DNA from: Paludibacteraceae bacterium
Lineage (GTDB): Bacteria; Bacteroidota; Bacteroidia; Bacteroidales; Paludibacteraceae
DNA length: 64,000 bases
Direction: 5' to 3'
NCBI GenBank assembly: GCA_017478725.1
Contig: JAFVDD010000012.1
Span: forward strand, 62,001-126,000
Positions 15,925 through 50,966 of this stretch are shown here, piece by piece. Positions within the stretch are counted from its first letter, which is position 1, and the number at the start of each line of letters is the position of its first letter. The notes under the pieces are model-generated. The model searched no databases. It was given only the letters and a program-made list of their open reading frames with translations, and was not told the DNA's origin. The position numbers and the translations under genes are program-made.

Positions 15925-16148
15925 TGGAGAAATTTATTGAATTATTCGCGGAGCAATTTGATGAAATGGATGTTGCCCGCCTCAATCCGGAAACCCGTTT
16001 CCGTGAGTTGGAAGAATGGAGTTCGTTGGTTGCACTCCTCGTCATCACGATGGTGGATGAAGAATACGGGGTTGTGCTACCTCCGGAAGAGATGCGAAAA
16101 GCCCAGACTATTCAGGAATTATTCGACCTCGTGCAAAGCAAACTTTGA
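15924..16148 (+). CDS. Acyl carrier protein (first of two)
   Basis: The 74-residue acidic protein has the four-helix acyl-carrier pattern ending in FDLVQSKL. The usual phosphopantetheine site D-S-L appears as EEWSSLVALLV, so the expected carrier Ser is Ser34 and the preceding Asp is replaced by Ser. Because that Asp helps recognition by holo-ACP synthase in many ACPs, this may be a specialised carrier served by its own partner enzymes. Its ATG overlaps the PglD-like stop by one base, and its stop codon starts a heptanucleotide array that fills part of the gap to the next gene. Confidence 0.82.
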   Translation: MEKFIELFAEQFDEMDVARLNPETRFRELEEWSSLVALLVITMVDEEYGVVLPPEEMRKAQTIQELFDLVQSKL

Positions 16149-16168
16149 TAGTTGATAGTTGATAGTTC
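16146..16168. repeat. Heptanucleotide array TGATAGT x3 starting at a stop codon
   Basis: Perfect TGATAGT units at 16146, 16153 and 16160; the first three bases are the ACP stop codon. The next reductase begins at 16200. Confidence 0.8.
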
Positions 16169-16199
16169 TTAGCCCTAAAGGCACGATTATTTGATATTT

Positions 16200-16946
16200 A
16201 TGTACAATCCTTTCTCATTGGAGGGTAAGACCATCTTGGTCACCGGTGCTTCCTCAGGCATCGGCAGAGCGACTGCAATAGAGTGCTCCCGTATGGGCGC
16301 AACCGTTTTTTGTACCGCGCGTAATGAGCCGCGCCTGCGTGAGACGCTCACCATGATGGAAGGAGAGGGACATCACTTTATCGTGGCGGATTTGACCAAC
16401 GAAGAGGATATCATCGCTTTGGTGGAGCAATTGCCGCAGTTGGACGGAGTGGTTTGCGCTGCCGGAGTCAGTGCACTCAAACCTATTCAGACGGTAAAGG
16501 AGCAGGATATACGCACCGTTTTTGACACCAATTATACGGCACCGGTCTTACTCACCAAAACGCTCGTTAAAAAACGTAAATTAGATCCGGAATCCTCGAT
16601 CGTGTTCATTTCTTCGATCTCTGGCAATGGAAACATCGCTACTGCGCTTTCGCTCTACGGATGTTCCAAAAGCGCTCTTAACAGTTTTGCCAAATATGCA
16701 GCATTGGAGGTGGCAAGCAGAAAAATCCGATGCAACACCATTTGTCCTGGGCGCATAGAAACAGGTCTTTTGCAAAACCAAACGATGAGTGCGGAAGATA
16801 TAGAGAAAGATATTGCAAAATATCCTCTTCATCGATATGGGCGACCGGAAGAAGTGGCACAAGCTGCTGTGTATCTGTTGTCTGATGCTTCAAAATGGAT
16901 TACAGGGACGAGTATAACAATAGATGGAGGAAGAACGATTGTATAG
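16200..16946 (+). CDS. Short-chain dehydrogenase/reductase (FabG-like)
   Basis: The 248-residue product is a classical SDR. It has the NAD(P) motif TGASSGIG (about residues 15-22), a modified NNAG motif (CAAG), the catalytic Ser cluster FISSISG, and Tyr152-x3-Lys156 in YGCSKSAL, then the ICPGRIETG loop and the terminal GTSITIDGG. In this setting it most likely reduces a 3-ketoacyl-ACP made by the KAS III enzyme to the 3-hydroxy form. ATG at 16200 is preferred to a TTG nine bases earlier because it gives the standard spacing to the glycine-rich loop. Confidence 0.85.
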   Translation: MYNPFSLEGKTILVTGASSGIGRATAIECSRMGATVFCTARNEPRLRETLTMMEGEGHHFIVADLTNEEDIIALVEQLPQLDGVVCAAGVSALKPIQTVKEQDIRTVFDTNYTAPVLLTKTLVKKRKLDPESSIVFISSISGNGNIATALSLYGCSKSALNSFAKYAALEVASRKIRCNTICPGRIETGLLQNQTMSAEDIEKDIAKYPLHRYGRPEEVAQAAVYLLSDASKWITGTSITIDGGRTIV

Positions 16947-16956
16947 TTAATAATTT

Positions 16957-17703
16957 ATGGAACGATTATTGGAGAATAAGATTTGCATCATTACCGGTGC
17001 TGCGCAGGGTATAGGTAGAGAGATTGCAAAACGGTTTGCAGAAGATGGCGCTGTTGTTTATGCATGCGACCGACAAGAATTAGATGATTCAAAAATTCAA
17101 GAATTTGAAGATTTGAAGATTCACTATTTGTCATTCGACTTAACCGATGCCGCCGCCACAAAAGCCGCGATGATGCAAGTATTCAAAGCCGAAGGACGGA
17201 TAGATGTGCTGGTAAATAACGCCGGAGTGGTATTCAATCGCAAGATTGGCATGATCCTGCGTGAAGAGACCGAACTGATGTTCCGCATCAATGTGATCGC
17301 TGTGTTGGAGTTGATTCAGTTGGTTAGTCGTCTTATGGCGCGTAATGGCGGCGGCAGTATCGTCAATATCGCCTCTGTTACTGCAGTACTTGGCTCGCCC
17401 GGACAAGTTGCTTATTCGGCTACCAAAGGTGCGATTATTGCCCTGACCAAATCAGCCGCTAAAGAGTTAGCACCGCAGGGCATTCGCGTGAATGCCGTAG
17501 CGCCGGGAATTGTCAAAACAGAGCGGTTTGCAGAGTTATACGAAGTCAATGGCGAGAAAATCGATTCGCGCATCAGCCGCATTGCTTTAGGTCGATTAGG
17601 CACACCAGAAGATATAGCGAATGCCTGTTCGTTCTTGGCTTCCGACCGCGCAAGTTATATCTCCGGACATGTTTTGGGTGTAGATGGATGCGCTTCGATT
17701 TAG
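16957..17703 (+). CDS. Short-chain dehydrogenase/reductase (FabG-like)
   Basis: The 248-residue SDR has TGAAQGIG (residues 13-20), NNAG (87-90), the catalytic Ser140 (NIASVTA), Tyr153 and Lys157 (YSATKGA), and VAPGIVKTERF before the C-terminal ISGHVLGVDGC. It is closer to standard 3-oxoacyl-ACP reductases than the SDR ten bases upstream. Two different reductases in one cassette suggest either two reduction steps at different positions or opposite stereochemistry. Its TAG stop is followed directly by a heptanucleotide array leading into the next ATG. Confidence 0.86.
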   Translation: MERLLENKICIITGAAQGIGREIAKRFAEDGAVVYACDRQELDDSKIQEFEDLKIHYLSFDLTDAAATKAAMMQVFKAEGRIDVLVNNAGVVFNRKIGMILREETELMFRINVIAVLELIQLVSRLMARNGGGSIVNIASVTAVLGSPGQVAYSATKGAIIALTKSAAKELAPQGIRVNAVAPGIVKTERFAELYEVNGEKIDSRISRIALGRLGTPEDIANACSFLASDRASYISGHVLGVDGCASI

Positions 17704-17731
17704 TTGACAGTTGATAGTTGACATTTCATAT
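17704..17731. repeat. Heptanucleotide array filling an intercistronic gap
   Basis: Units TTGACAG, TTGATAG, TTGACAT and TTCATAT run from the base after the SDR stop (17703) into the ATG of the AMP-ligase at 17730. Confidence 0.8.
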
Positions 17732-19082
17732 GTTGTTAGGTTTAGAACATATTGACCCTGCAAGGTTAGCGGCGATTGATAGCGAAGGCGGGAAACTGAC
17801 TTATGGGCAGATAATCGAGCGGGCTAAAGCAATTGAGGCACTTGTGCCGGAACGCGCATTGTGTTTCATGTTGGTGGAGAACAACGTGACGTGTGTGGAA
17901 TGGGTTATGGCATCACTCATCAGCCGGAGATTAGTTCCGCTGATTTTGAATGCCAAAATCGATGAGACACTTTATGCCAATTTGTTAGAGACGTATCTAC
18001 CTGCGTACATCTGGGAGAAAGGCGAACTCACGCGCACGGAGCATCCCATTACTCCACTCTATCCCGAATTAAGCCACCTGCTTCCCACATCGGGAAGTAC
18101 AGGAAGTCCTAAACTGGTTCGGCATTGTTACGACAATATCGAAGCAGCGGGATTGAATATATCAACCTTCTTTGAACTCAAAGAGTCCGATCGGCCACTG
18201 ATGGTGCTTCCCCTCTATTACACGATGGGACTTTCGATGGTATTCAGCCATTTCAAAGTGAGTGCGACCGTGCTCATTACAGGACGCAATATGACAGACC
18301 CTGTATTCTGGAAGTTCCTCAAAGAAGAGCGTGCCACGTCCTTCACCGGCGTTCCCTACTCCTTCCTGATTCTGAACATGATGCGTTTCTTCCGCATGGA
18401 TCTGCCGGATATGGAGCTGCTGACGCAAGGGGGAGGAAAGATGGAGCGCGGCTTGAACCTGAAGTTCGCTGAGTATTGTCGTGACAACAACAAACGCTGG
18501 ATTGCTACGTATGGACAATCGGAATGTACCGCACGCATGGCATACCTGCCGACTAAATGGGCTATCGAGAAAGCAGGCAGTATCGGTATCGCGGTACCTA
18601 ATGGAGAACTATCTCTTATAGACGAGAACGGCAATCCGATTACCACTCCACACACAGAAGGAGAAATGTGCTACCGCGGCAAGAACGTGACGATGGGATA
18701 TGCCACCTGCGCTGAAGACTTGCTCAAAGGCGATGAGCGGCATGGATTCATCCGCACAGGAGACTTGGCTTATTTCGATGAAGACGGTTGCTACTATATC
18801 GTAGGACGCATGGGACGGTTCCTCAAGCTATTCGGTATGCGCGTCGGGTTGGATGAGTGCGAACAGATTATAGCCACAAATTGCCAAACCGAAAGTGCAT
18901 GTGTGGGCACGGACGAGAAAATGATCGTCTATATCACCGATGCCGCAAAAACGCAAGCCGTCAAAGACGCACTTGTAGAAAAAACACACATTGTGGCTAC
19001 CTCGTTTGAAGTACGTGTTATACCGGAGATACCGAAGAACGAAGCGGGAAAGAAGTTATTTAGTAAATTAGAAAACAAATAA
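17730..19082 (+). CDS. AMP-dependent acyl ligase (acyl-ACP/acyl-CoA synthetase family)
   Basis: The 450-residue product is an ANL-superfamily adenylating enzyme. It has the phosphate-binding loop LLPTSGSTGSPK (about 117-128), the adenine-binding motif TYGQSECTA, RTGDLAYFDEDGCYYIVGR in the hinge, and the terminal catalytic Lys in PKNEAGKKLF. It is somewhat shorter than typical acyl-CoA synthetases (about 500-550 residues). Flanked by two ACP genes, it most likely activates a carboxylic acid with ATP and loads it onto one of them. ATG at 17730 is preferred to a TTG four codons upstream that lies within the repeat array. Confidence 0.85.
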   Translation: MLLGLEHIDPARLAAIDSEGGKLTYGQIIERAKAIEALVPERALCFMLVENNVTCVEWVMASLISRRLVPLILNAKIDETLYANLLETYLPAYIWEKGELTRTEHPITPLYPELSHLLPTSGSTGSPKLVRHCYDNIEAAGLNISTFFELKESDRPLMVLPLYYTMGLSMVFSHFKVSATVLITGRNMTDPVFWKFLKEERATSFTGVPYSFLILNMMRFFRMDLPDMELLTQGGGKMERGLNLKFAEYCRDNNKRWIATYGQSECTARMAYLPTKWAIEKAGSIGIAVPNGELSLIDENGNPITTPHTEGEMCYRGKNVTMGYATCAEDLLKGDERHGFIRTGDLAYFDEDGCYYIVGRMGRFLKLFGMRVGLDECEQIIATNCQTESACVGTDEKMIVYITDAAKTQAVKDALVEKTHIVATSFEVRVIPEIPKNEAGKKLFSKLENK

Positions 19083-19085
19083 GTT

Positions 19086-19325
19086 ATGACAAATATAGAA
19101 AAGTACAACGACATTTTTGTACAGGTTTTTGGTGCAGATGTTGCGCAATTAGGTGATAACTACAGCAAGGAGACTGTCTCCGAATGGGATTCAGTACACC
19201 AATTGAATATCATCTCTTTGATGGAGGAAACATTCGATTTGATGCTTGATCCGGAAGATATCATGGCATGCACTAGTTATAATGCCGGCAAAGCGATCCT
19301 CGCGCGCAACGGAATCGAATTGTAA
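19086..19325 (+). CDS. Acyl carrier protein (second of two)
   Basis: The 79-residue protein has the carrier motif SEWDSVHQLNII, with the expected phosphopantetheine-bearing Ser36 following the normal Asp, and a C-terminal helix with EDIMACTSYNAGKAIL. It is only distantly like the first ACP (which has SSL), so the two are probably not interchangeable. It begins three bases after the AMP-ligase stop. It probably carries the starter or the finished acyl chain for the KAS III enzyme next door. Confidence 0.85.
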   Translation: MTNIEKYNDIFVQVFGADVAQLGDNYSKETVSEWDSVHQLNIISLMEETFDLMLDPEDIMACTSYNAGKAILARNGIEL

Positions 19326-19355
19326 ATGGAAAATGATTAAATCGTACATGATTTT

Positions 19356-20420
19356 ATGGCTCGTTGGACAATAAAAAATGTTCGTATAGCAGGTGTAAGT
19401 GCATGCGTTCCTAACAGAATTGTTAAGACCGCAGAATTAGGGATACTGAACGAAGAAGAGTCACTCACTTTTGACAACACAGTCGGTATCAAGGAACGCC
19501 GGTTAGGTCCGGACAGTTTATGCGCTTCTGATATGTGCCAAGCAGCCGCCGAGAGACTCATCTCGGAATTAGGATGGGATAAAGAGAGCATTGATGCACT
19601 CATTTTCGAATCCGTCACCGGAGATTACTATCCTACCCCTCCTACATCTTGTCTGCTCCAAGACCGCTTAGGACTTTCTTCCAATTGTTTTTGTCTGGAT
19701 CTTCCGATGGGCTGCTGTGGTTCTTTATACGCCATCAACGTGGCAGGAAACATGCTGTCTGCCGGAAATATTCACAGAGCTTTATTGCTTGTGGGGGATA
19801 CTGCTTTGCGAATGGGTTCTATGCGAGATAAGAGTCGTGTGCCGCTTTTTGGTGATGCTGGTACGGCTATAGCCTTGGAGTATGATACGAACGCTGATGA
19901 TATCGTTATTGAGTTCCATACGATGGGTTCCGGCTACAAAGCGCTGATGACCCCTCATGGCGGTTTTAGAAATCCAACTACTCCAGATTCTTTCGAATAC
20001 GAGGACTTCGGCAACGGAATCATTCGCCGTAAACGAGATACGCTTATTGAAGGAATGGATGTGTTTACGTTTGCCATCTCCCGTCCTCCGAAATCGTTTG
20101 AGCAGTTCATTGCTGATTATCATTTGGATAAGGAGAAAGATATTGACTATTACTTGATCCATCAGGCGAATAAAATGATTGTCGATCGTATTGTCAAGAA
20201 ACTCAAACTACCTATTGAGAAAGTACCCTATAATTTGGAGCAATTTGGCAATACCGGTGGAGCGAGTGTGCCGATGCTAATGGTAACACGTTTGCGCGAA
20301 CAGTTACAGCAAGATAAACCACATCGTCTCCTATGTTCCTCTTTCGGTCTCGGACTGAGTTGGGGCACAATGATGTTGAATGTAAAAAATGTAGTTATTC
20401 CTGAATTGATTGAAATATAA
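19356..20420 (+). CDS. 3-oxoacyl-ACP synthase III-like ketosynthase
   Basis: The 354-residue product is a thiolase-fold KAS III (FabH-like). The catalytic Cys120 lies in LDLPMGCCGSL (aligning with the AACAGF of FabH, with a second Cys in place of Ala), His269 in YYLIHQANK, and Asn299 in QFGNTGGAS. These form the Cys-His-Asn triad of decarboxylating condensing enzymes. It would extend an acyl-CoA or acyl-ACP primer with malonyl-ACP. Its presence in a glycan locus with two ACPs, two reductases and a ligase points to dedicated synthesis of a short hydroxy-acyl substituent. The Cys-Cys sequence is unusual. Confidence 0.88.
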   Translation: MARWTIKNVRIAGVSACVPNRIVKTAELGILNEEESLTFDNTVGIKERRLGPDSLCASDMCQAAAERLISELGWDKESIDALIFESVTGDYYPTPPTSCLLQDRLGLSSNCFCLDLPMGCCGSLYAINVAGNMLSAGNIHRALLLVGDTALRMGSMRDKSRVPLFGDAGTAIALEYDTNADDIVIEFHTMGSGYKALMTPHGGFRNPTTPDSFEYEDFGNGIIRRKRDTLIEGMDVFTFAISRPPKSFEQFIADYHLDKEKDIDYYLIHQANKMIVDRIVKKLKLPIEKVPYNLEQFGNTGGASVPMLMVTRLREQLQQDKPHRLLCSSFGLGLSWGTMMLNVKNVVIPELIEI

Positions 20421-28767: not shown

Positions 28768-29988
28768 ATGCAACGGGAATTTATATTAATCAACATTATC
28801 GGTTTTGACAAACCGGGTGTAACAGCCGCCGTGACGGAGGTGTTGGGCAAGTACGGTGCGTACGTGCAAGATATCGGTCAATCGAACCTGCATCACCAAC
28901 TTAATCTGAGTATATTGATTCGCGTGGATGACGCATCCAAGAGCGGCGATATGATCAAAGAAGTGCTCTTCTGCTGCTCACGGCTGGAGATGATTGTACG
29001 ATTCACACCTCTGAGCGAAGAGGAATACTCCGCATGGGTGGGCAGACAGGAACAAGAGCGATACGTAGTGACGCTTCTTGCCCGCGAACTGAACGCCCGG
29101 CACATAGCAAGGGTAACAGCCCTGCTGGCAGAACGGCAACTGAATATCGACAATATCCTGCGACTGAGCGAGCGTCCGGGCATAGACCTGCCGATAGAGA
29201 AAAGACATTCGTGCATTGAGTTTTCACTCCGAGGCAACCTACCCGACCGCGAGGCTTTGCAAAAGAAACTGATGGAAGTGTCACATGAGGAAGGGATAGA
29301 TATTTCATTCCAGCGCGATGATATGTTCCGCCGCAACAGACGATTGATCTGCGTAGATATGGACTCCACTTTCATCCAGACCGAGGTGATCGACGAGTTG
29401 GCACAACGGGCAGGTGTGGGCGATGAGGTCAAAGCCATCACACTCTCCGCCATGCGCGGCGAGATTGATTTCAAGGAGAGTTTCACCCGACGAGTAGCTT
29501 TGCTGAAAGGATTGGATGCCGGCGTACGGCAGGACATTATTGACAAACTGCCTATTACCGAAGGCGCCGACAGGCTGTTCGGCGTACTGAAGAAATGCGG
29601 TTTCAAGATTGCTATCCTCTCCGGCGGATTCATGTTTGTAGGCAAATACCTGCAAGAACGTTTCGGCGTGGATTATGTGTATGCCAACGAACTGGAGATA
29701 CAGGACGGCAAGTTCACAGGCCGGTATATAGGCGATATAGTTGATGCACGGAGAAAAGCCGAACTGCTGGAACTGATTGCCCAGGTTGAGCACATCGATC
29801 TGGCACAAGTGATAGCCGTAGGCGACGGCGCAAACGACCTGAATATGCTCGGCAAAGCCGGTCTGGGAATCGCGTTCCATGCCAAACCCAAAGTACAGGC
29901 GAGCGCCCAGCAATCCATCTCGACAGTCGGACTGGACGGCATTCTGTATTTCCTGGGATTCAAGGATGCGTTCCTTAGGGAAAATTAA
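28768..29988 (+). CDS. serB: Phosphoserine phosphatase with N-terminal ACT domains
   Basis: The 406-residue product has a pair of ACT-like domains (ILINIIGFDKPGVTAAVTEV and a second at about residue 95) followed by a HAD phosphatase. The HAD motifs are DMDST with nucleophile Asp197, ILSGGFMF with the motif II Ser, and GDGANDLNML. It removes phosphate from phosphoserine in the last step of serine synthesis; ACT domains usually bind serine. ATG at 28768 follows the aminotransferase stop by four bases. It marks the change from the glycan locus to housekeeping genes with more balanced composition. Confidence 0.93.
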   Translation: MQREFILINIIGFDKPGVTAAVTEVLGKYGAYVQDIGQSNLHHQLNLSILIRVDDASKSGDMIKEVLFCCSRLEMIVRFTPLSEEEYSAWVGRQEQERYVVTLLARELNARHIARVTALLAERQLNIDNILRLSERPGIDLPIEKRHSCIEFSLRGNLPDREALQKKLMEVSHEEGIDISFQRDDMFRRNRRLICVDMDSTFIQTEVIDELAQRAGVGDEVKAITLSAMRGEIDFKESFTRRVALLKGLDAGVRQDIIDKLPITEGADRLFGVLKKCGFKIAILSGGFMFVGKYLQERFGVDYVYANELEIQDGKFTGRYIGDIVDARRKAELLELIAQVEHIDLAQVIAVGDGANDLNMLGKAGLGIAFHAKPKVQASAQQSISTVGLDGILYFLGFKDAFLREN

Positions 29989-30015
29989 AATTACGAATTA
30001 AGAATTGCAAATTGC
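29988..30015. repeat. Heptanucleotide array filling the serB-ftsY gap
   Basis: Units AAATTAC, GAATTAA, GAATTGC and AAATTGC start at the last base of the serB stop and end 4 bp before the ftsY ATG at 30020. Confidence 0.8.
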
Positions 30016-30019
30016 GCTT

Positions 30020-30982
30020 ATGGCATTTTTCGGATTATTTAACAGAGAGAAGAAAGAGACCCTGGATAAGGGTTTGGAGAAAAGCAAAGAGTCGGTGCTG
30101 AGCAAGATCGGGCACGCTATTGCCGGTAAATCCACCATAGATGACGATGTGCTGGATGATTTGGAGGAGGCGCTGATTACATCGGATGTAGGCGTGGAGA
30201 CTACACTACGTATTATAGAACGCGTGCAAGAGCGCGCGAAACGCGACAAATACCTCGGCACCGCGGAGTTGCGACAGATACTGGTGGAAGAGATTGCAGA
30301 TCTGCTGCAAGAGAACAACACCGCGGATGTATTGGATTTTGCAGACAAGTTGCCCGCCAAGCCCTATGTGATCATGGTAGTGGGCGTGAACGGCGTAGGC
30401 AAAACAACCACGATCGGCAAGCTGGCATACCAATACAAACAGGCAGGCAAGAAAGTGTATCTGGGTGCAGCCGACACATTCCGCGCGGCAGCCGTGGAGC
30501 AACTCTGTATCTGGGGCGAGCGCGTAGGCGTGCCAGTGATCAAACAGCAACAAGGCAGCGACCCGGCATCTGTGGCGTTTGATACCCTGCAATCCGCAAA
30601 AGCCAATGATGCAGACGTGGTGCTGATTGACACAGCCGGCCGCCTGCACAACAAAGTGAACCTGATGAACGAGTTGACGAAGATCAAGAACGTGATGCAG
30701 AAAGTAGTACCGGACGCTCCTCACGACGTGATGCTGGTGCTGGACGGTTCTACCGGACAGAACGCATTTGAGCAGGCAAGGCAGTTCACCGCCGCCACAC
30801 AAGTCAGCTCGCTCGCTATCACCAAACTGGACGGTACTGCCAAGGGCGGCGTAGTCATCGGCATCAGCGACCAATTCAAGATTCCGGTAAGGTACATCGG
30901 GCTGGGCGAACAGATGACCGATTTGCAGGTTTTCAACCGCAAGGAGTTTGTAGATTCGCTGTTAGGAGCGGTGGCGAAATAA
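30020..30982 (+). CDS. ftsY: Signal recognition particle receptor FtsY
   Basis: The 320-residue product has the short N domain (ALITSDVGVETTLRIIERV) and the G domain with GVNGVGKTTTIGKLA (about 121-135), DTAGRLHNK, TKLDGTAKGG and the C-terminal GLGEQMTDL. FtsY is the membrane-associated SRP GTPase that receives ribosome-nascent chain complexes. The long acidic N-terminal A domain of E. coli FtsY is absent, as in most Bacteroidota. The ATG at 30020 is chosen over an upstream TTG that falls in the repeat array. Confidence 0.95.
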   Translation: MAFFGLFNREKKETLDKGLEKSKESVLSKIGHAIAGKSTIDDDVLDDLEEALITSDVGVETTLRIIERVQERAKRDKYLGTAELRQILVEEIADLLQENNTADVLDFADKLPAKPYVIMVVGVNGVGKTTTIGKLAYQYKQAGKKVYLGAADTFRAAAVEQLCIWGERVGVPVIKQQQGSDPASVAFDTLQSAKANDADVVLIDTAGRLHNKVNLMNELTKIKNVMQKVVPDAPHDVMLVLDGSTGQNAFEQARQFTAATQVSSLAITKLDGTAKGGVVIGISDQFKIPVRYIGLGEQMTDLQVFNRKEFVDSLLGAVAK

Positions 30983-33803: not shown

Positions 33804-33862
33804 AATTGTAAAATTTTAAAGGTTCATTACTATTCCTTCAAATATCATGCCAAAATGTTCTC

Positions 33863-33922
33863 CCGATATTGATCCGATATTGATCCGATAAAACCCCGAT
33901 ATGCCCCCGATGTACTTCCGAT
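33863..33922. repeat. 11-bp-periodic CCGAT array (6 copies)
   Basis: CCGAT starts at 33863, 33874, 33885, 33896, 33907 and 33918, exactly 11 bp apart. On the minus strand it reads ATCGG towards the exported-protein gene that starts at 33803. Confidence 0.9.
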
Positions 33923-33934
33923 AAAGATTCAGGG

Positions 33935-37278: not shown

Positions 37279-38547
37279 ATGAAAATTTCATTCACGACAT
37301 TAGGCTGCAAGCTCAATTTTGCCGAATCAAGTGCGCTTGGCAAAGCCTTGTTGGAGCGCGGACACGAACGCGCCGCCAGAGGCGAACAAGCCGATATATG
37401 TGTTATCAACACCTGCTCTGTAACCGATGCCGCCGATCATAAAGACCGGCAGATGATTCATCGCATCCGCCGGCAGAATCCCGACGCCATACTGATTGTA
37501 ACAGGCTGTTATGCCCAACTCAAGCCCGCTGAGATTGCACAAATCGACGGTGTGGATTACGTGTTGGGGCAGAACGAGAAATTCAATCTGCCCGATTTCA
37601 TCGGGAATCTGGAGCAGCATGTTGCACAAATTCATACCTCAGCCATCCGTGAGATAGATGATTTTCACAGCGCATACAGCAAGGACGACCGCACGCGTTG
37701 TTTCTTGAAAGTGCAGGACGGATGCAACTATTTCTGTACTTATTGCACCATCCCGTTGGCCCGTGGCAAGAGCCGCAACCCATCCGTTGCAACGATTATC
37801 AAACAAGCGGAGGAAGCCATAGCCGGCGGAGCCAAGGAAATGGTATTGACAGGGGTCAACATCGGCGATTTCGGGCGCAGCACAGGCGAGAACTTTATTG
37901 ATTTGCTGCATGCATTAGACAATATCGGGAACTATGATTTCAGGGTACGCATCTCCAGTTGCGAGCCCAACCTTTTGAGCGATGAAATCATTGATTTTGT
38001 AGCCCAAAGCAAACATTTTGCTCCGCATTTCCATATTCCGCTGCAATCCGGCAGCAACGAGGTGCTGCGAATCATGAAACGCCGCTACACTCGGGAGTTG
38101 TTTGCCGGGCGCGTGGCGCATATCAAACAAGTCATGCCGAATGCGTTTATCGGAGTGGACTGTATGGTAGGCGTTCGCGGCGAGACGGAAGAATGCTGGC
38201 GCGATTATGTCACATTCATTGAGAGTCTGCCGGTTTCGCAACTGCATGTGTTCACCTATTCCGAACGAGCCAACACACGAATGCTGGAACTGGATCTCCC
38301 TATTGTGCCGCAAAAGGAACGGGAACGGCGAAGCAAAGAACTGCACGCCGTGAGCGAGCGCAAGACTGCTCAATTCTACCGGGAGCATGAAGGCGAAACA
38401 GCCACCGTGCTATGGGAAGCCAAACGAATCAAGAATGCTGACGGGACCGACACGATGGAGGGATTTACCGAAAACTACATCAAGATATCCTGTCCGTACG
38501 ACAAAACAAAAATCAATACGTTTGAGCGCGTCCGCATAGCGTTTTGA
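37279..38547 (+). CDS. mtaB: tRNA (t6A37) methylthiotransferase MtaB
   Basis: The 422-residue product has the three Cys of the first Fe-S cluster (Cys10, Cys46, Cys77), the radical-SAM motif GCNYFCTYC (Cys149, Cys153, Cys156) and a C-terminal TRAM-like region. It installs a methylthio group on N6-threonylcarbamoyladenosine at position 37 of tRNA. The short N-terminal domain and the opening ISFTTLGCKLNFAES fit MtaB better than MiaB or RimO. ATG at 37279 is fixed by the promoter. The last 35 bp overlap the convergent AddB-like gene. Confidence 0.93.
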   Translation: MKISFTTLGCKLNFAESSALGKALLERGHERAARGEQADICVINTCSVTDAADHKDRQMIHRIRRQNPDAILIVTGCYAQLKPAEIAQIDGVDYVLGQNEKFNLPDFIGNLEQHVAQIHTSAIREIDDFHSAYSKDDRTRCFLKVQDGCNYFCTYCTIPLARGKSRNPSVATIIKQAEEAIAGGAKEMVLTGVNIGDFGRSTGENFIDLLHALDNIGNYDFRVRISSCEPNLLSDEIIDFVAQSKHFAPHFHIPLQSGSNEVLRIMKRRYTRELFAGRVAHIKQVMPNAFIGVDCMVGVRGETEECWRDYVTFIESLPVSQLHVFTYSERANTRMLELDLPIVPQKERERRSKELHAVSERKTAQFYREHEGETATVLWEAKRIKNADGTDTMEGFTENYIKISCPYDKTKINTFERVRIAF

Positions 38548-41329
38548 ACGGACAAAAAGAGGGGCAGTCGCTCTCGGCACAGCGCGGGAACGATGTGGCG
38601 GTTAGTATCTCATGCACCTTGGCGGAAAGGGCTTTCAGAAAATCATTTTGCAACACCCGAACGTCTGAAACAGGCTGATTGTCAATAGATATAGTAGTAT
38701 CTATGTCCGTCAGCTTACGGCGGCAGAAATACAGATTCGGCTCAACCGGCAGATTCTCCTTGGAATGCCGCGCCACAGCACAACTGTACATCATTGTTTG
38801 ACGCACATAACCCTTCTCCGGCAACGAGAACAACTCCTCTGAAGCGGCAGACATTTTCTTGTCATGCGTCTTGTCGTTGTAGGAACCTGATTTATAGTCA
38901 ACAACGCGCAGGCGTTGATTCCCCTCCTCTCCCTGTATGTCCAAGCGGTCAATCGTCCCGCCTGTCTCCACCGTACCGATTCTTTCCACTTCCAGCGGCA
39001 GCGTACGCTCCTGCTCCAGAAGACAGATCTGCAGTCCGGTGAGTGCATCCGCCGCATCGCGTTGCAGCACATTATCCACATAGCCCAGAATAATGATATT
39101 CTCGGACGGATGATGAGAAATCCGGTAGTGCTCCGGTTCGTCCGGATGGTCGCAAAGCCACTCCCGGTTCATGGCATCATAGGCAGCCTCGAGAGCCTGC
39201 TGCAACCGGTTCTGGTCCGCACGCACCGACTCAATCTGCTCATGTGTCACTTTCCGCGGGGCCGAATTATCACATGCCATATAGGTGCGATAAATATATT
39301 CCAGCGTATGATGGACAAACGAACCGAGGGTATTGGGAGCATAAAGCGCGTCTTCCTTTTCCTGCGGTTGCAATCCCAGAATGTATTGCAGATAGAAATT
39401 ATACGGACAGGTGATATAGGTATTCAGCGCACTTGGGGATAGGCGATAAGGTCTGCCCGAAGAACGCAACACCCGTCCGCGGGTATCTACGTGCAACTGA
39501 CTGAGCAATGAGTCGGAAGCATGTGTATCATCTGTCAGCGGAGTATGGGAAACGATACCGGGTTCCTGCAAGCGGAACTTGGTCACCCGGAACTCAGGCG
39601 AAACGAGTATCTGCATGACAAACCGCGAAAGCCCTTTGCCGCCGTCGGCTGTGTCTGCGGAGGTGAAGAGCATAGTGGTCTCGCCGGCGCGACTAAGCAA
39701 ACGGAAGAAATTATAGGCATATACTGTGGCGCGCTCGTCAGCTGTCTGCATATGATAGGCTTTCCGCAGATAGAACGGGATAAAACTGATATCCTGCTGG
39801 CGTTGCGGTATCACGCCTTCCTCCACATGGAGCAGTAGGAGTTTGTCAAAATCCAGCATTCGCGTCTCCAGCACACCCATTACCTGGATATCCGTCATCG
39901 GTTCGCCGTGGAAAGGCATCGTGACACTCTCCATGGTGCGACGCATCAACAGCCGCAGCAACTTGAGCGTAAACGGCACATCGTCCAGACCTGTAGCGAT
40001 CAGAAGACGCATCTGGTTGATGATCTTGCGTACCTGGTATTCCGACTCCAGAATGAGCAACTCCTGCCAGGAAAGCGACTCGGTGGTTTCCGGCGTGTCT
40101 GGCAGATCGGCGGTTTCAAACAAATAGGCCGATAATTGATCGATGAAATCAGGCGAAACGATAGTCTCGGCATTGCCACGTGCCCGGTCGGAGAGCCAAG
40201 AGAGAGTTTTTGCAAACACCTGGGTGTTGCGCAACGGGAAACCTTTGGTGATATTCACTGGCTCCGGCTGTCCGCCGTCTATAGTGATTGCCGGCAAGGC
40301 ATAAATCACCGACTCCAGCATGTTCTCATCGCAGATAACCACTCCTACCCGTTCGCCCTTGGCGGTATAATTGTCACGCAGCCATTGATGCACATACTGG
40401 GCTTGGGATTCGCGCGAGACGCAGGAGCCGACTGCTATGCTCGGGAAATGCTTCGCTCGTTGCGGCTCAGGCGGCATGGCATTGCCAAGCAGCGCACTGT
40501 TCCGTTCGGCAAAAGAGAAGGCTTTTTCGTTTGTACGGAAACAGGGCACGTAATCCCAATAGAAGAGTGCCTGTTGATTGTCGCGCAACAACTCCATCAG
40601 TTCGCGCTCAACCGGCAGCAGGTAATTGAACCCCACAAAAATAAATGTACGTCCGGCTATTTGCTGTTGCACCGGATCATCGTTCCAATGCTCAATCACG
40701 CTCCGTTGGCGCATTCCGCTATAGCCTTTCCGCTCCGACTCCATTTCTGCATGCAGAGCCTTGTATAGTTCGTACAGCTGATGCCATATATATTCGTATT
40801 GCTGCCGCACGGAATCCTCGCTTGCTTTTCGCAATTCGTTGTTGGTCAGGAGTCCGCGCAGCCTGGTTTCCGTCTCCGGCTCCAACTGCCATTGGCTCAG
40901 TTCGTGTGCCGCAATCGTGTTCGCAAAGAAATTCGGAACCTCCTCCGCGTGCATCGAGGCGTCAATATTGGTAAAGTCCGCCAGCATCTGCCTGCCCCAC
41001 CCGTAGAACATATCCAGAGGCATGAGGTCATTGCCGGACTGCCGGCTGTCGGCTGCCGGCTGTTGGCGATAGAGCCGATAGAGCCGTACGATAGTCATCA
41101 GTTCGTCTTCCGGATAAAGCGGACTGAGGGCGTCCTGCAACTGCTGCAGGGTGAGCACTTGCGGTGCCCATACCGCCTTTTGTCCTGCCTGCTGCTGGAG
41201 CGAGAGCAGTTCGTTTTTCAGTACTACTCCGGCTCGATGGCTGGGTAAAACCAACGTCGTGCGGTTCAACTGCTGCCAAGGTATATGCGTCGTAATCGAA
41301 ACGGCTGTCTGATGCAAGAAACTGTCCAT
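38513..41329 (-). CDS. addB: AddB-like PD-(D/E)XK nuclease/helicase subunit
   Basis: The 938-residue product lacks an obvious Walker A but has the helicase-fold remains of AddB (LVLPSHRAGVVLKNEL). The C-terminal nuclease domain has LSPSALNTYITCPYNFYLQYI, GSFVHHTLEYIY and VVDYKSGS (Asp-Lys-type catalytic residues). Three Cys near the end (RCAESDCPSFCPFKTLCG) plus the earlier Cys form the AddB iron-sulphur site. With the upstream AddA-like gene it would process double-strand DNA ends for recombination. It begins 13 bp after AddA ends. Residues about 88-97 are encoded by a heptanucleotide array. Confidence 0.85.
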   Translation of the reverse strand: MDSFLHQTAVSITTHIPWQQLNRTTLVLPSHRAGVVLKNELLSLQQQAGQKAVWAPQVLTLQQLQDALSPLYPEDELMTIVRLYRLYRQQPAADSRQSGNDLMPLDMFYGWGRQMLADFTNIDASMHAEEVPNFFANTIAAHELSQWQLEPETETRLRGLLTNNELRKASEDSVRQQYEYIWHQLYELYKALHAEMESERKGYSGMRQRSVIEHWNDDPVQQQIAGRTFIFVGFNYLLPVERELMELLRDNQQALFYWDYVPCFRTNEKAFSFAERNSALLGNAMPPEPQRAKHFPSIAVGSCVSRESQAQYVHQWLRDNYTAKGERVGVVICDENMLESVIYALPAITIDGGQPEPVNITKGFPLRNTQVFAKTLSWLSDRARGNAETIVSPDFIDQLSAYLFETADLPDTPETTESLSWQELLILESEYQVRKIINQMRLLIATGLDDVPFTLKLLRLLMRRTMESVTMPFHGEPMTDIQVMGVLETRMLDFDKLLLLHVEEGVIPQRQQDISFIPFYLRKAYHMQTADERATVYAYNFFRLLSRAGETTMLFTSADTADGGKGLSRFVMQILVSPEFRVTKFRLQEPGIVSHTPLTDDTHASDSLLSQLHVDTRGRVLRSSGRPYRLSPSALNTYITCPYNFYLQYILGLQPQEKEDALYAPNTLGSFVHHTLEYIYRTYMACDNSAPRKVTHEQIESVRADQNRLQQALEAAYDAMNREWLCDHPDEPEHYRISHHPSENIIILGYVDNVLQRDAADALTGLQICLLEQERTLPLEVERIGTVETGGTIDRLDIQGEEGNQRLRVVDYKSGSYNDKTHDKKMSAASEELFSLPEKGYVRQTMMYSCAVARHSKENLPVEPNLYFCRRKLTDIDTTISIDNQPVSDVRVLQNDFLKALSAKVHEILTATSFPRCAESDCPSFCPFKTLCGRAQTY
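41039..41066. repeat. Heptanucleotide array inside the AddB-like gene
   Basis: Units CTGCCGG, CTGTCGG, CTGCCGG and CTGTTGG recur every 7 bp. They encode a short variable segment (QPAADSRQSG) in the N-terminal half. Confidence 0.78.
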
Positions 41330-46903: not shown

Positions 46904-46933
46904 CGGCGTCATTTGACCTTCGGGTCAAGAACG

Positions 46934-46958
46934 CGACCATCACGCGACCATGTTACGA
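46934..46958. repeat. 11-bp-periodic dispersed repeat
   Basis: CGA recurs at 46934, 46945 and 46956. The first 18 bp (CGACCATCACGCGACCAT) are identical to 15159-15176, and the extension GTTACGAC matches the reverse complement of 15122-15129. Confidence 0.85.
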
Positions 46959-47090
46959 CGACAACATAGGAACGGTATTGGAGCAATAAAAAAACGCCCG
47001 CACATATAGTGCCGACGCTTTCTTACCATGTCGTCATATCGTCATGTCATCATGTCTGACTTCTGACGGCCGATGCAGGTCTGACCTGGC

Positions 47091-47120
47091 AAAAAAAAGC
47101 GCTTTTCGGCGCTTTTTTTT
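47091..47120. terminator. Intrinsic terminator with a perfect 12-bp stem
   Basis: AAAAAAAAGCGC, loop TTTTCG, GCGCTTTTTTTT. It separates the GT4 gene from prfB; its last T residues form part of the prfB -33 box. Confidence 0.88.
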
Positions 47121-47149
47121 GCATATTTGAAAAAAAAGCAGTACCTTTG
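47118..47149 (+). promoter_or_regulatory. Bacteroidota-type promoter for prfB
   Basis: TTTG (47118-47121) followed by CATATTTG, 20 bp, TACCTTTG (47142-47149). The -33 box overlaps the terminator's T-tract. Confidence 0.8.
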
Positions 47150-47180
47150 TAGCCGATTTAGATTGGCTTATTATAGACTT

Positions 47181-48287
47181 ATGATTACAATAGAACAACT
47201 CAAAGACATCCAGCAACGCGCGGACAAGCTCAAAGCGTACCTGCAGATTGACGAAAAACGCATCCAGCTGGAGGAAGAAGAACTGCACACACAGGCACCC
47301 GGTTTCTGGGACGACGCCAAGGCCGCCGAGGCGCAGATGCGCAAAGTAAAGAGTATCAAACGATGGATAGAAGGATACGAAGGCGTGCGCTCGGCCGTGG
47401 AAGAACTCGCGCTCGCGTTTGATTACTACAAGGAGGAATTGGTGACCGAGCAGGAAGTGGACGCCGCCTACTCTCACGCCCTGGCGGAAGTAGAAGATCT
47501 CGAAATGAAGAACATGCTCTCGCACGAGGAGGATCAGATGCCGGCCGTGCTCAAAATCGTCTCCGGCGCCGGCGGCACCGAGGCGCAGGACTGGGCGGAG
47601 CAACTCATGCGTATGTACCAGCGGTATTGCGAGAAACATGATTACAAAGTGACAATCGCCAACCTCCAGGAGGGCGATGAGGCAGGTATCAAAACCGTCA
47701 CTTTCAATATAGAAGGCGACATGGCGTACGGTTATCTCAAATCCGAGAACGGCGTTCACCGTCTCGTCCGCGTCAGCCCCTATAACGCGCAGGGCAAACG
47801 CATGACTTCGTTCGCGTCCGTCTTCGTCGTGCCGCTCATCGACGACACTATCGAAGTGGAAGTCAACCCTGCCGGCATCAGCTGGGACACGTTCCGCAGC
47901 TCCGGAGCCGGAGGACAGAACGTCAACAAAGTGGAGTCAGGCGTGCGGCTGCACTATAAGTTCGTCAACCCACTCACCAACCAGCCCGACGAGATTGTCA
48001 TTGAGAACACCGAAACACGCGACCAGCCCAAGAACCGCGAGAACGCTCTCCGCCACCTCCGTTCGCAACTCTACGAACTGGAGCTGGAGAAACGACGCCA
48101 GGCACAAGCCAAAGTGGAGGCTGGCAAGAAAAAGATTGAATGGGGCAGCCAGATACGCTCCTACGTCTTTGACGACCGACGCGTGAAAGACCACCGCACC
48201 AACTATCAGACCTCCAACGTCAACGCCGTCATGGACGGCGACATCGACGCCTTTATCAAAGCTTACTTAATGGAATTCTCGGATTAA
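47181..48287 (+). CDS. prfB: Peptide chain release factor 2
   Basis: The 368-residue product has the catalytic GGQ loop (SSGAGGQNVNKV, Gly244-Gln246) and the stop-codon-reading tripeptide as Ser-Pro-Tyr (199-201) where most RF2 proteins have Ser-Pro-Phe. It releases peptides at UAA and UGA codons. The frame is uninterrupted from ATG 47181, so the programmed +1 frameshift of many prfB genes is absent. It leads a co-directional run with the C1 peptidase, YigZ, acyltransferase, coaD and S41 genes. Confidence 0.94.
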   Translation: MITIEQLKDIQQRADKLKAYLQIDEKRIQLEEEELHTQAPGFWDDAKAAEAQMRKVKSIKRWIEGYEGVRSAVEELALAFDYYKEELVTEQEVDAAYSHALAEVEDLEMKNMLSHEEDQMPAVLKIVSGAGGTEAQDWAEQLMRMYQRYCEKHDYKVTIANLQEGDEAGIKTVTFNIEGDMAYGYLKSENGVHRLVRVSPYNAQGKRMTSFASVFVVPLIDDTIEVEVNPAGISWDTFRSSGAGGQNVNKVESGVRLHYKFVNPLTNQPDEIVIENTETRDQPKNRENALRHLRSQLYELELEKRRQAQAKVEAGKKKIEWGSQIRSYVFDDRRVKDHRTNYQTSNVNAVMDGDIDAFIKAYLMEFSD

Positions 48288-48311
48288 CGAAATTCAACAC
48301 TACTTACAGAT

Positions 48312-49523
48312 ATGAAAAAGATTGTAACAATCATGGCGCTTGTCGCGCTGACAATGAGTGCATTTGCACAAACAGACAGCACTGAAGTGAAAAAAGACAG
48401 CGTGGAGGAGGGTTTCCGCTTCACCACAATAGACAGCGTGGCTATCACGCGTGTGAAAGACCAGAACCGCAGCGGCACTTGCTGGGCGTTCTCCACATTA
48501 GGATTTCTGGAGTCGGAAGTGCTGCGCATCAAGGGCATAGAGGTGGAGTTCGCGCCTATGTTCGTGGCCAGCAAGACGATGATTGACCGCGCCACCTACT
48601 GCGTGCGTATGTACAACGAGCCTAAGTTCGCTGAAGGCGGTTCTGCCTACGATGTCATCTATTGTATGCAGCACTACGGACTGGTGCCCAAGAGCGCCAT
48701 GCCGGGTATCCGCTACGGTTGGACAGAGGCCGACACACTGCCCGTTTTCGGCGAACTGAGCGCAGTAGCCGGAGGGTACCTGAACGGGCTGACTAAGCAG
48801 AAGAAACTCAGCCCGGTATGGAGGGAAGGATTGCAGGCGATATACGACACCTATCTGGGCAAATGTCCCGAGGAGTTTGAATACGAGGGCAAGACATACA
48901 CGCCGCAGTCGTTCGTCAAGAGCCTCGGCCTGAATGCCGACGACTATGTGTCACTCACCAGCTACACCCACCACCCCTTCTATGAGCGCTTCGCACTGGA
49001 GGTGCCCGACAACTGGCGCATGGACCAGATGTACAACCTGCCTATTGACGAACTGATGGCAGTGATCGACAACGCTATCGCCTCCGGATATACGCTCGCA
49101 TGGGGCGCTGACGTCAGCGAGTTGGGCTTCACGCGCAAGGGCATAGGCGTTGTGCCGGATGCCGACAAGGGCGCCGACCTCACAGGAAGCGACATGGCCA
49201 AATGGGTGGGCTACACGGCGGACAAGAAAAAAGAAGAACTGACCAAACGGCCCCTGCCCGAGAAGGAAATCACCCAGCAAATGCGCCAGGACGCCTACGA
49301 CAACTGGGAAACCACCGACGACCACGGCATGCAGATATTCGGTATCGCGCACGACCAGAACGGCAAAAAATACTATATGGTCAAAAACAGTTGGGGCACC
49401 ATGCGCTCCGATTACAAGGGTATCTGGTACATCAGCGAGGCTTTCATGCGCTACAAGACTAACGACGTTCTCGTCCACAAGAACGCTATCCCCAAAAACA
49501 TACGCAAAAAACTCAGCCTCTGA
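48312..49523 (+). CDS. Exported C1 cysteine peptidase (bleomycin hydrolase-like)
   Basis: The 403-residue product has a signal peptide (MKKIVTIMALVALTMSAFA) and the C1 triad: Cys57 in NRSGTCWAFST, His338 in DDHGMQIFG and Asn359 in VKNSWGT. The long inserts between them match aminopeptidase C/bleomycin hydrolase. Unlike those cytoplasmic enzymes it is exported, so it probably trims peptides in the periplasm or at the surface. Its stop codon lies in a heptanucleotide array that continues to the next start. Confidence 0.9.
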   Translation: MKKIVTIMALVALTMSAFAQTDSTEVKKDSVEEGFRFTTIDSVAITRVKDQNRSGTCWAFSTLGFLESEVLRIKGIEVEFAPMFVASKTMIDRATYCVRMYNEPKFAEGGSAYDVIYCMQHYGLVPKSAMPGIRYGWTEADTLPVFGELSAVAGGYLNGLTKQKKLSPVWREGLQAIYDTYLGKCPEEFEYEGKTYTPQSFVKSLGLNADDYVSLTSYTHHPFYERFALEVPDNWRMDQMYNLPIDELMAVIDNAIASGYTLAWGADVSELGFTRKGIGVVPDADKGADLTGSDMAKWVGYTADKKKEELTKRPLPEKEITQQMRQDAYDNWETTDDHGMQIFGIAHDQNGKKYYMVKNSWGTMRSDYKGIWYISEAFMRYKTNDVLVHKNAIPKNIRKKLSL

Positions 49524-49561
49524 TGGCTGAATACTGACGGCTGAATACGAATGGCTGCCGA
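49520..49561. repeat. Heptanucleotide array filling the gap between two genes
   Basis: Units CTGATGG, CTGAATA, CTGACGG, CTGAATA, CGAATGG and CTGCCGA run every 7 bp. The first contains the peptidase stop, and the fifth contains the ATG of the YigZ-like gene (49551). Confidence 0.85.
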
Positions 49562-49913
49562 AGGCATATATAAAGACCGCGGGTCGAAGTTTCTCGCCTT
49601 TGCCGAGCGAATCAAAGACGAGGACGAAGCCAAAACGCGCATAGCGTGGTACAAGAAAAAATACCACGACGCCCGCCATGTGTGCTACGCCTACCGCCTG
49701 GGCGCCAACCTCTGGCGCACCAAGGACGACGGCGAACCTCACGGCACGGCAGGCGCACCTATCCTCCGCTCCATTGACGCCCGCGGGATGGATAATATGC
49801 TGGTAGTCGTAGTACGCTATTTCGGCGGCACACTGCTCGGCACGGGCGGACTGATGGTAGCCTACCGCGAAGCCGCCAAAGCCGCATTGGACAAAATGAA
49901 TGACGAAAACTAA
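49551..49913 (+). CDS. YigZ/IMPACT-family protein
   Basis: The 120-residue product has the IMPACT N-terminal signature GSKFLAFAERI, HDARHVCYAYRLG, DDGEPHGTAG and VVRYFGGTLLGTGGL. These small proteins are conserved; E. coli YigZ and eukaryotic IMPACT are linked to translation control, but the bacterial role is unclear. It lacks the usual C-terminal ferredoxin-like domain. The N-terminus is shorter than in relatives by about ten residues because the start codon is inside the repeat array and an in-frame stop (49542) lies just upstream. Confidence 0.88.
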   Translation: MAAEGIYKDRGSKFLAFAERIKDEDEAKTRIAWYKKKYHDARHVCYAYRLGANLWRTKDDGEPHGTAGAPILRSIDARGMDNMLVVVVRYFGGTLLGTGGLMVAYREAAKAALDKMNDEN

Positions 49914-49932
49914 AAAGTGAAAGGCAACTGTT

Positions 49933-50937
49933 TTGGATAATCAATATAAGGACATAGCCTGTTACCACACGGCGGCATTGCTGCCGGTAAGCGACTTGCT
50001 GTTTGTGTTTCCATACTTGCAATACCTGCAATGCAAAACCACCAAGAGCCTACGGCTGGACTACCTGGGCGACCGCAAACAGATTGAACGGGACATCCGT
50101 CACGGCGCTTTTTTCATGACCAACCACCGCGACATTGTGATGGACGCGGCATGGCTGTCGTTCCTGTTGCGCAAACGCTATCTCATCCGCCCGTATATGG
50201 GCGTGGGAGACAATCTGTTCGCAAAAAAATGGATAGAAGTGGCAATGCGTTTCAACCGCTGTTTCGCTGTCAAACGCGGCTGCGGAGCACACGCACAACT
50301 GGAGAACGCCAGAAAACTGTCCGCTTACATCCGCTACCTGCGCGGACGGCATAAATCTATCTGGCTGGCACAGCGTGAAGGGCGCGCCAAGGACAGCAAC
50401 GACCTCACACAGACTTCTGTTCTGCATATGCTCACCATGGACAACCCGGATTTCTTTGAGGCCGTCAAAACGCTCAATATCTGCCCGGTAAGTATCTCGT
50501 ACGAATACGACCCGTGCGATTTTCTCAAAGCCAAAGAGATGCAGTTCCGTCGCGACAACCCGCGCTGGCACAAAACAAAACGCGACGACGTCGAGTCGAT
50601 GGCTACGGGTATCAAGGGCTACAAAGGCCGCGTGGTCTATCGCCTCACGCCGAGCATCAATACGGAGATAGACGCTATGCTCGCCGCACACCCCGAATAC
50701 CGCACGCTGCCGCACAGCGAACAGGCGCAACAGGTGTGCAACCTGATTGACAGGCATATTCATTTGGGCTACGAGATATTCGATCGTGGCACAGAATTTG
50801 ATTCCTATATCGAAAGCCGAATCGCCAAGATTGACATCCCTGACAAGGACGAAGCCTTCTTGCGTGAGAAACTGTACGAAATGTACCGCAATCCGGTCAT
50901 CAACCATCAGAAAGCGGTGCAAACTGCAAACTGTTAA
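49933..50937 (+). CDS. PlsC-like glycerolipid acyltransferase
   Basis: The 334-residue product has the acyltransferase motif FFMTNHRDIVMD, in which His and Asp are separated by five rather than four residues, and LAQREGRAKDSND in place of the usual EGTRSR. It is a soluble or peripheral form without clear membrane helices. It most likely acylates a lipid precursor (1-acyl-glycerol-3-phosphate or a lipid A-like acceptor). The start is a TTG at 49933, the only plausible codon after the in-frame stop at 49918 that keeps the N-terminal DIACYHTAALLPVSD. Confidence 0.75.
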   Translation: MDNQYKDIACYHTAALLPVSDLLFVFPYLQYLQCKTTKSLRLDYLGDRKQIERDIRHGAFFMTNHRDIVMDAAWLSFLLRKRYLIRPYMGVGDNLFAKKWIEVAMRFNRCFAVKRGCGAHAQLENARKLSAYIRYLRGRHKSIWLAQREGRAKDSNDLTQTSVLHMLTMDNPDFFEAVKTLNICPVSISYEYDPCDFLKAKEMQFRRDNPRWHKTKRDDVESMATGIKGYKGRVVYRLTPSINTEIDAMLAAHPEYRTLPHSEQAQQVCNLIDRHIHLGYEIFDRGTEFDSYIESRIAKIDIPDKDEAFLREKLYEMYRNPVINHQKAVQTANC

Positions 50938-50966
50938 TTGCTAATTGATAATTCTTAATCATAATG
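50933..50966. repeat. Heptanucleotide array filling the gap before coaD
   Basis: Units GTTAATT, GCTAATT, GATAATT and CTTAATC, then ATAATGA, run every 7 bp. The first contains the acyltransferase stop TAA (50935), and the last contains the coaD ATG (50964). Confidence 0.85.

Follow-up and report, generated by a model that had tools for sequence, protein, structure and literature searches.

Short tandem arrays with 7-, 8- and 11-bp steps in a Paludibacteraceae genome and its relatives: species dialects and turnover at orthologous sites

The window analysed here is a stretch of 64,000 nucleotides from the 2.16-Mb draft genome of a Paludibacteraceae bacterium (GCA_017478725.1, contig JAFVDD010000012.1, positions 62,001 to 126,000 of the forward strand), in which short tandem arrays of 7-bp units occupy several gaps between consecutive genes. 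Across the genome and its kin, such arrays use a discrete set of periods (7, 8 and 11 bp), their units are dispersed within a genome and differ between species, they turn over at orthologous sites, and inside genes they are filtered by coding sense. The account that we favour, with moderate confidence, is that these are fast-turnover arrays, which would grow by slippage, would probably be copied between loci and would persist at sites that tolerate change. Among named genomes, those that encode the nearest relatives of a protein of the window are from uncultured Bacteroidales and Paludibacteraceae, many of them carrying rumen or gut labels.

The period set was established in a sample of 750,364 bp, or 35% of the genome, with 368 co-directional, 44 convergent and 33 divergent gaps. 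The 368 gaps are the 5-400 bp subset of 517 co-directional pairs, and 5-600 bp was used in the later multi-genome analyses; genes were called by our own script rather than by a standard program, and the open reading frame at 15852-16148 was missed. At lag 7, the co-directional gaps contained 32 periodic segments (mismatch -2, score >= 10), compared with a mean of 0.20 and a maximum of 1 in 20 shuffles, and the excess was similarly marked at lag 8 (19 segments against 0.30) and lag 11 (20 against 0.10). Counts at the remaining lags were low: lags 5, 9, 10, 12 and 13 gave 3, 4, 2, 1 and 3 segments, respectively. Segments at lags 7, 8 and 11 numbered 5, 3 and 3 in convergent gaps and 5, 3 and 2 in divergent gaps, and coding DNA (660,561 bp) held 48 period-7 segments compared with 3 in one shuffle. 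The initial annotation, made from the window sequence, had described the 7-bp period as constant; the strong lag-7 excess agrees with this, but lags 8 and 11 are also enriched.

Eight kin genomes (the window's own, G003, G006, G032 and G062 to G065; 107,911 bp of gap sequence) gave 82, 55, 6, 2, 59, 0 and 3 segments at lags 7 to 13, respectively. G062 and G063 are overlapping homologous regions, and therefore not independent samples, and G021 is the same genome as G062. Samples from four other families of the order gave one lag-7 segment in all (in G044) and none at lag 8 or 11, a 50-kb sample of Escherichia coli K-12 gave none at lags 4 to 24, and a few segments at 7 and 8 were present in seven loci from Tannerella, Prevotella and other Bacteroidales. 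A genus-wide rule is opposed by G014, described below, and by 13 kin loci at 61-64% identity, which use 7 and 11 and hardly 8. Some 15-bp repeats resemble alternating 8- and 7-bp units (AAATGACT AAATTGT), as if periods mix, as judged by eye in a few cases (L025 and other loci of the window's genome, including C12:67258 and C4:29432).

Single gaps of the window were tested by lag-7 self-match against 2000 dinucleotide shuffles, a more lenient scoring than that used genome-wide. Four arrays on the plus strand had scores that were equalled by none of the shuffles. The first, at 16146-16172 (score 16), consists of three TGATAGT units with a decaying end and starts with the stop codon of an acyl-carrier-like open reading frame (15852-16148; PF00550). 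The second, at 17702-17731 (score 13), begins at the stop codon of an SDR gene (16957-17703) and extends into the start codon (ATG) of the AMP-binding gene that follows (17730-19082), and the third, at 29989-30015 (score 12), is a degenerate RAATTRC-like array that separates a SerB-like gene (28768-29988) from an FtsY-like gene (30020-30982). The fourth, at 50918-50959 (score 21), extends from the last codons of an acyltransferase gene (49978-50937), stop codon included, to a point 4 nt upstream of the ATG of a CoaD-like gene (50964-51413). The fifth gap in which 7-bp units had been annotated is different, since 49521-49553 scored only 5 at lag 7 (p 0.12) but reached 12 at lag 14; its repeat is one of 14 bp, readable as the heptamer pairs GGCTGAA TACTGAC GGCTGAA TACGAAT. 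The whole feature (49520-49557, plus strand, with 14-bp unit stretches at 49520-49548 and 49523-49557) has a peptidase C1-like gene (48312-49523) upstream and a UPF0029 gene (49551-49913) downstream, and reaches into the start codon of the latter. Under the stricter genome-wide scoring three of the five gaps pass, and those at 29989 and 49520 fail. The description of gaps filled exactly from stop to start also requires amendment, because the first gap ends, ahead of the ATG at 16200, in a non-heptameric stretch of some 30 bp (approximately 27-32 bp) and the array at 50918 begins 17 nt inside the coding end of the upstream gene. The flanking genes are ordinary, comprising the acyl-carrier-like frame, two SDR genes, and the AMP-binding, SerB-like, FtsY-like, C1-like peptidase, UPF0029, acyltransferase and CoaD-like genes, and include housekeeping functions (FtsY-like, CoaD-like and SerB-like), a point of comparison with phase-variation (contingency) repeats, in which a change in unit number switches a surface or similar gene. 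A search of the window against Rfam at the gathering threshold gave 0 matches.

The units of these arrays are shared within genomes more than between them, by factors of 2.7 (period 7), 7.0 (period 8) and 24.7 (period 11), compared with maxima of 1.55, 3.82 and 10.96 under shuffled genome labels. Stretches of the window's genome that had been chosen for holding two of the families were omitted from this test, and low-complexity units were excluded from both the unit-sharing and the unit-family analyses. One or a few unit families predominate in each genome, and several unrelated families, of three periods, coexist in one genome. Whole-genome pattern counts (overlapping matches, with 60 other genomes for comparison) illustrate the differences between species: GGCTGAC2 has 93 matches in the window's genome and at most 25 in any other, and ACGACATG2 has 125 matches there, 40, 22, 14 and 10 in four kin and at most 4 elsewhere. 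The pattern AATTGATAATTGAT has 22 matches in the window's genome, 123 in G021, 222 in G063 and 6 in G064; AATTGAT2 has 115 matches in G052, which belongs to another family, and a reversed control pattern has 113 matches in G011, which looks like a dialect of its own. The word dialect is borrowed by analogy. In the Neisseriaceae, DNA uptake sequences are single 10-12-bp words and not tandem arrays. They occur there in species-specific dialects of a short dispersed sequence, according to the accessible text of PMC3630211, and the likeness extends to the term only.

Within units, no conserved positions were found in sets of 18, 11 and 13 arrays, substitutions being spread as by chance, although the power of this comparison is limited; the idea of an anchor plus spacer, with four conserved and three free bases per heptamer, was rejected on the same finding. 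Loci L048, L050, L052 and L070 were excluded from the unit-column and orientation tests because their genomes are present under another handle. The flanks of arrays with the same unit rarely share sequence: a common 10-mer was found in 38/1482, 20/2550 and 12/506 flank pairs, and in up to six examples per family most of the shared 10-mers were array-like and one was a single-locus repeat. Therefore no larger element carries the arrays, and a mobile element with arrays as cargo was discarded as a candidate. A reverse transcriptase as a general copying engine was likewise discarded, since RVT_1, the sole Pfam model searched in these incomplete drafts, was present in 9 of 37 same-genus genomes and missing from the array-bearing genomes G003, G006, G032 and G021.

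Over a divergence of 5-10%, arrays are gained, lost or exchanged at orthologous gaps. The gap between the acyltransferase gene and coaD contains a period-7 array in 7 of 24 rows from kin, with units such as AAACTGA, AGTTTAA, AGTTTAG and AAATTGT, and two gaps upstream of it contain a period-7 or period-8 array in 10/26 and 4/9 rows. Between the genomes of loci L052 and L073, which are approximately 90% identical, one array is swapped for one of another unit while the following codons are identical; the C-terminal residues vary with the array, and in L052 one start codon lies within an array. A systematic comparison was possible for G062 and G063, which are 95.6% identical in the P0001 region. 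Among 43 orthologous gaps, 15 have an array in at least one of the two genomes, and these arrays are the same in 3, differing in 8 and confined to one genome in 4. In one gap, an AATTAAA array stands opposite AATTGAT/C units with identical flanks, and in two others the length change is exactly 16 bp, equal to two 8-bp units. The serB-ftsY gap is bare (12 bp) in L288 and carries TAATCC-type units of 8 and 7 bp in L279, in a comparison of the only three genomes with both genes as close neighbours. As a separate observation, L070 and L073 have a gap of 136 and 131 bp, respectively, upstream of a heptamer array, which is about 114 bp longer than in L052; the extra sequence is bounded by inverted ATACTCT..CGGAG / CTCCGAGAGAGTAT and has the appearance of a stem-loop or of a small element that was inserted.

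With respect to placement, the 684 co-directional gaps of the eight genomes included 65 with a period-7 array, 46 with a period-8 array and 37 with a period-11 array, counting the first array per gap and period only. The initial annotation dealt with gaps between co-directional genes, but the frequency of period-7 arrays per gap is equal in co-directional (9.5%), convergent (6/66, 9.1%) and divergent gaps (7/78, 9.0%). Seventy-three period-7 arrays cover a stop codon, and their stops are in the sense strand only in 40 and on both strands in 26, giving a ratio of 40:7 for sense-only to antisense-only; this bias arises because an array over a stop contains a stop by definition. For arrays wholly within gaps the sense bias is not significant (13:7 for period 7, 12:5 for period 8 and 10:10 for period 11), and orientation was therefore rejected as proof of function for period 7, the bias being confined to arrays that cover stops.

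Arrays are also found inside genes, where their orientation is filtered. Among 97 period-7 arrays in coding DNA, stops occur in the antisense direction only in 56, in the sense direction only in 12, in both in 4 and in neither in 25 (p 6e-8 for 56:12), so that the arrays are mostly in a stop-free orientation. The GGCTGAN family has a ratio of 29:1 in coding DNA, compared with 8:7 in gaps of the co-directional type. Different species carry different heptamer arrays in corresponding loops of a TMEM260-like protein (PF11028). One such loop, compared by eye in nine orthologues, is TCAGCCG-like in the window's genome, AAAAATT-like in L255, AAAGGTG-like in L259 and GGACAAT-like in L254, and both the array and the extra residues are absent from the other five. 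These loop arrays are the clearest sign that the arrays were not made for operons. In the window, the TMEM260-like coding sequence (1026-4157, minus strand) contains two heptamer arrays, one at 2240-2259 (TCTGACG on the plus strand), in the stop-free orientation and in a loop that varies among species, and a second at 3814-3839 (CTGACGG on the plus strand), which encodes VVSHQSSAVRYQ. A further repeat of period 7/14 is present at 41032-41067 on the minus strand, within the coding sequence at 38513-41329. In the first loop of the TMEM260-like protein of L255 (G021), a palindromic insert, CCTCCCC TAAA GGGGAGG, occurs where the window's genome has a heptamer array; this tolerated site is thus open to small repeats of other kinds.

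In the account that we favour, the arrays would be the visible part of a genome-wide turnover process, in which tandem arrays with steps of 7, 8 and 11 bp form, lengthen, shorten and are written over. Expansion and contraction may proceed by replication slippage or unequal recombination, and the shared units may derive from copying between loci, by template switching or ectopic conversion. Most coding sequence and the promoters would be cleared of arrays by selection, and those that remain would be found between cistrons, across stop codons, at the C-terminal ends of proteins and in their loops. Where the array is the larger part of a gap that would have only a few bases without it, the gap would seem to be filled from one gene to the next. 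The preference of period-7 arrays for stops would reflect constraint, which among transcribed DNA is weakest in the final codons of a gene and in the bases directly behind it.

Several observations weigh against this account. Period-7 arrays begin between 12 nt before and 3 nt after the upstream stop in 43 of 65 cases, compared with 29.4 for random placement (0 of 2000 random sets had as many), which upholds the initial annotation of the first unit at the stop. Per kb, divergent gaps are poorer in arrays than co-directional ones (0.40 against 1.02 for period 7 and 0.17 against 0.72 for period 8); for period 7 this is a further point in favour of the initial annotation. Periods 7 and 8 are found in short gaps (medians of 53 and 65.5 bp), and period 11 tracks gap length. 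Two families are oriented with gene direction, the 8-bp ACGACATR family by 18:5 (p 0.011) and AAAGGTG by 12:0 in co-directional gaps, where 8 of the 12 overlap or touch a stop; several families were tested, without correction. Pure tolerance leaves out both of these biases, as well as the stop preference and the choice of 7, 8 and 11. Copying between loci is a probable process, suggested by shared units only. In the G062/G063 comparison, at least two of the differing gaps have diverged coding flanks too, and therefore whole-segment recombination explains some of the changes; two of the eight differ by a single base and by two substitutions, respectively, and the greater frequency of length change in gaps with arrays (12/15) than in other gaps (13/28) is borderline (p 0.052). 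Finally, G014 (L111-L117), placed in the same genus by the classification tool, uses lags 9, 10, 11 and 22 and not the set of 7, 8 and 11, and the period set itself may change between clades.

An alternative that goes further than the favoured account is that a dedicated or highly specific DNA-synthesis or copying activity writes arrays with fixed steps of 7, 8 and 11 bp and spreads the current unit of a species between loci, overwriting gaps, stops and loops. Such an activity is unlikely; if it exists, each species would come to have a dialect of its own in intergenic DNA and in loop peptides. It is rather unlikely that local slippage alone accounts for the arrays, each being seeded on the spot, with no copying between loci and with polymerase contacts that favour 7-bp steps. 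The whole-unit changes between G062 and G063 are consistent with this proposal, as is the excess of heptamers in many bacteria, which has been explained by slippage (Mrazek 2007, as reported in the accessible text of PMC4679880 and PMC4692102). However, it leaves unexplained that dozens of unrelated loci share a unit that kin lack, and that 8 and 11 are used but not 9, 10 or 12.

It is doubtful that the units serve as sites recognised by a protein that binds RNA or DNA and whose specificity depends on the species, from which the dialects would follow. Binding by a protein has been proposed for TAACTGA repeats (MacGregor 2015, PMC4679880, in the accessible text), and both the predominance of one or a few families per genome and the orientation of ACGACATR and AAAGGTG fit such a role. 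Nevertheless, units lack conserved columns, GGCTGAN arrays in gaps lie about equally often in either orientation, one genome can contain several unrelated families of three periods, and a divergence of 5-10% is enough for orthologous gaps to lose their arrays or exchange them for others.

The role that was suggested in the initial annotation, namely that the arrays are spacers which set distance or structure for translation reinitiation within an operon, is very doubtful. Stop-anchored period-7 arrays and the preference for short gaps would suit a spacer, and the next start codon lies inside some arrays (L052; 17702-17731 and 49520-49557 in the window). Yet convergent and divergent gaps are as likely to contain arrays as co-directional ones, and arrays of the same families occur within genes. 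Starts do not attract period-7 arrays, which end within 10 nt of the start in 31 of 65 gaps, compared with 36.9 expected, and period-11 arrays avoid starts (2 against 7.5 expected). Folding energy of the mRNA around starts did not differ between 77 and 233 gaps (p 0.59), and mRNA unfolding near starts was discarded as a role. Moreover, orthologous operon gaps manage without arrays, as in 17 of 24 rows for the coaD gap and in the bare serB-ftsY gap of L288. Since it is stops and not starts that period-7 arrays favour, the evidence does not support a role as reinitiation spacers. A further proposal, that the arrays act after genes as stop cassettes for all frames, on the grounds that 7, 8 and 11 are not multiples of three and that a unit with one stop therefore gives stops in three frames, is highly improbable, since the sense-strand stops of the stop-covering arrays agree with it but gap-internal arrays have no significant sense bias and periods of 4, 5, 10 and 13, which would serve equally, are nearly absent.

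Other repeats of the window include a 14-bp repeat on the plus strand at 51477-51508 (TCCTTGTTCCTTAC, 2.3 copies), at or near a gene start (candidates 51449 and 51494). A 277-bp gap contains both a period-8 array at 47027-47056 (CATGTCGT), which is the main 8-bp family of the genome in reverse orientation, and a period-11 repeat at 46931-46951 (ACGCGACCATC, 1.9 copies). A period-11 array of 2.5 copies (CCGATATTGAT) is present at 33863-33890, in the gap at 33804-33934, and the divergent gap at 55320-55823 contains 22-bp repeats (2 x 11) at 55394-55494 and period-11/22 repeats at 55667-55724. A co-directional run of genes at 4383-29988, with acyl-carrier, SDR and AMP-binding members, has a lower guanine-plus-cytosine content than the rest of the sample. 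The run resembles what we take to be a fatty-acid-like or aryl-polyene-type cluster.

Comparison with described systems suggests that the likeness to known heptamer repeats, which had been pointed out from the window sequence, is genuine, and that the accompanying statement that no described system has so exact a placement was too strong. According to the accessible text of MacGregor 2015 (PMC4679880), TAACTGA direct repeats occur in Beggiatoaceae, Cyanobacteria and some Bacteroidetes, with arrays a few nt upstream of starts, and two sets are present in Paludibacter propionicigenes, a member of the same family by NCBI taxonomy. The arrays described here resemble these as intergenic heptamer arrays of few units in which a single unit dominates each genome, related strains differ by indels of 7-nt steps and the orientation in open reading frames is stop-free. 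Because start-adjacent arrays, 7-nt indels and stop-free orientation are all in that account (PMC4679880), the kind of repeat is not new. Unlike TAACTGA repeats as described there, the present arrays have many units, which differ among species of one genus, and periods of 8 and 11 besides 7. TAACTGA is not the main repeat of the window's genome, which contains a single perfect TAACTGATAACTGA (TAACTGA2), a sequence present in 11 of 61 genomes searched, and the concentration just upstream of starts was not seen (the 31 of 65 against 36.9 given above). The most TAACTGATAACTGA matches, 12, were in G058, from another family of the order, the unit being one known from Beggiatoaceae.

Short tandemly repeated repetitive (STRR) heptamers of the cyanobacteria Calothrix and Nostoc form short arrays between genes, as described in papers that cite the original work; the present arrays are likened to them by that description. 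GGGNATC repeats of Xanthomonas and Nostoc (Rehm 2015, PMC4692102, in the accessible text) are dispersed intergenic heptamer arrays whose length and sequence vary between related species at the same gene pairs, as is the case here; they are G-rich and capable of forming quadruplexes, in contrast to the main units here, which are not G-tract repeats. Heptamers are the commonest of the 5-11-bp repeats in many genomes, and slippage has been proposed as the cause (Mrazek 2007, via PMC4679880 and PMC4692102; Mrazek and Huang 2014, PMC4060949, as far as the accessible texts state). The excess of periods between 5 and 11 bp with 7 prominent, and the change in copy number between relatives, place the arrays in the heptamer class of long simple sequence repeats. 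A discrete set of 7, 8 and 11 bp and species-specific units are not described for prokaryotic long simple sequence repeats in the accessible text of PMC4679880, PMC4692102 and PMC4060949. As far as literature searches show, it is the combination of this discrete set with many species-specific units within one genus that is new.

Tandem repeats of bacteria are usually studied at one locus or as phase switches, and the present case extends to a whole genus in which arrays are found in a large share of gaps. Two old questions can now be tested in this genus: the reason for the predominance of the 7-bp period among bacterial repeats, which is accompanied here by 8 and 11 but not by 9, 10 and 12, and the possibility that prokaryotes copy short arrays from one locus to another. 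Gaps with arrays could provide rapidly changing markers with which to follow strains in rumen metagenomes, and the C-terminal tails and inserted loops of proteins predicted from these organisms can be debris of repeats rather than functional parts.

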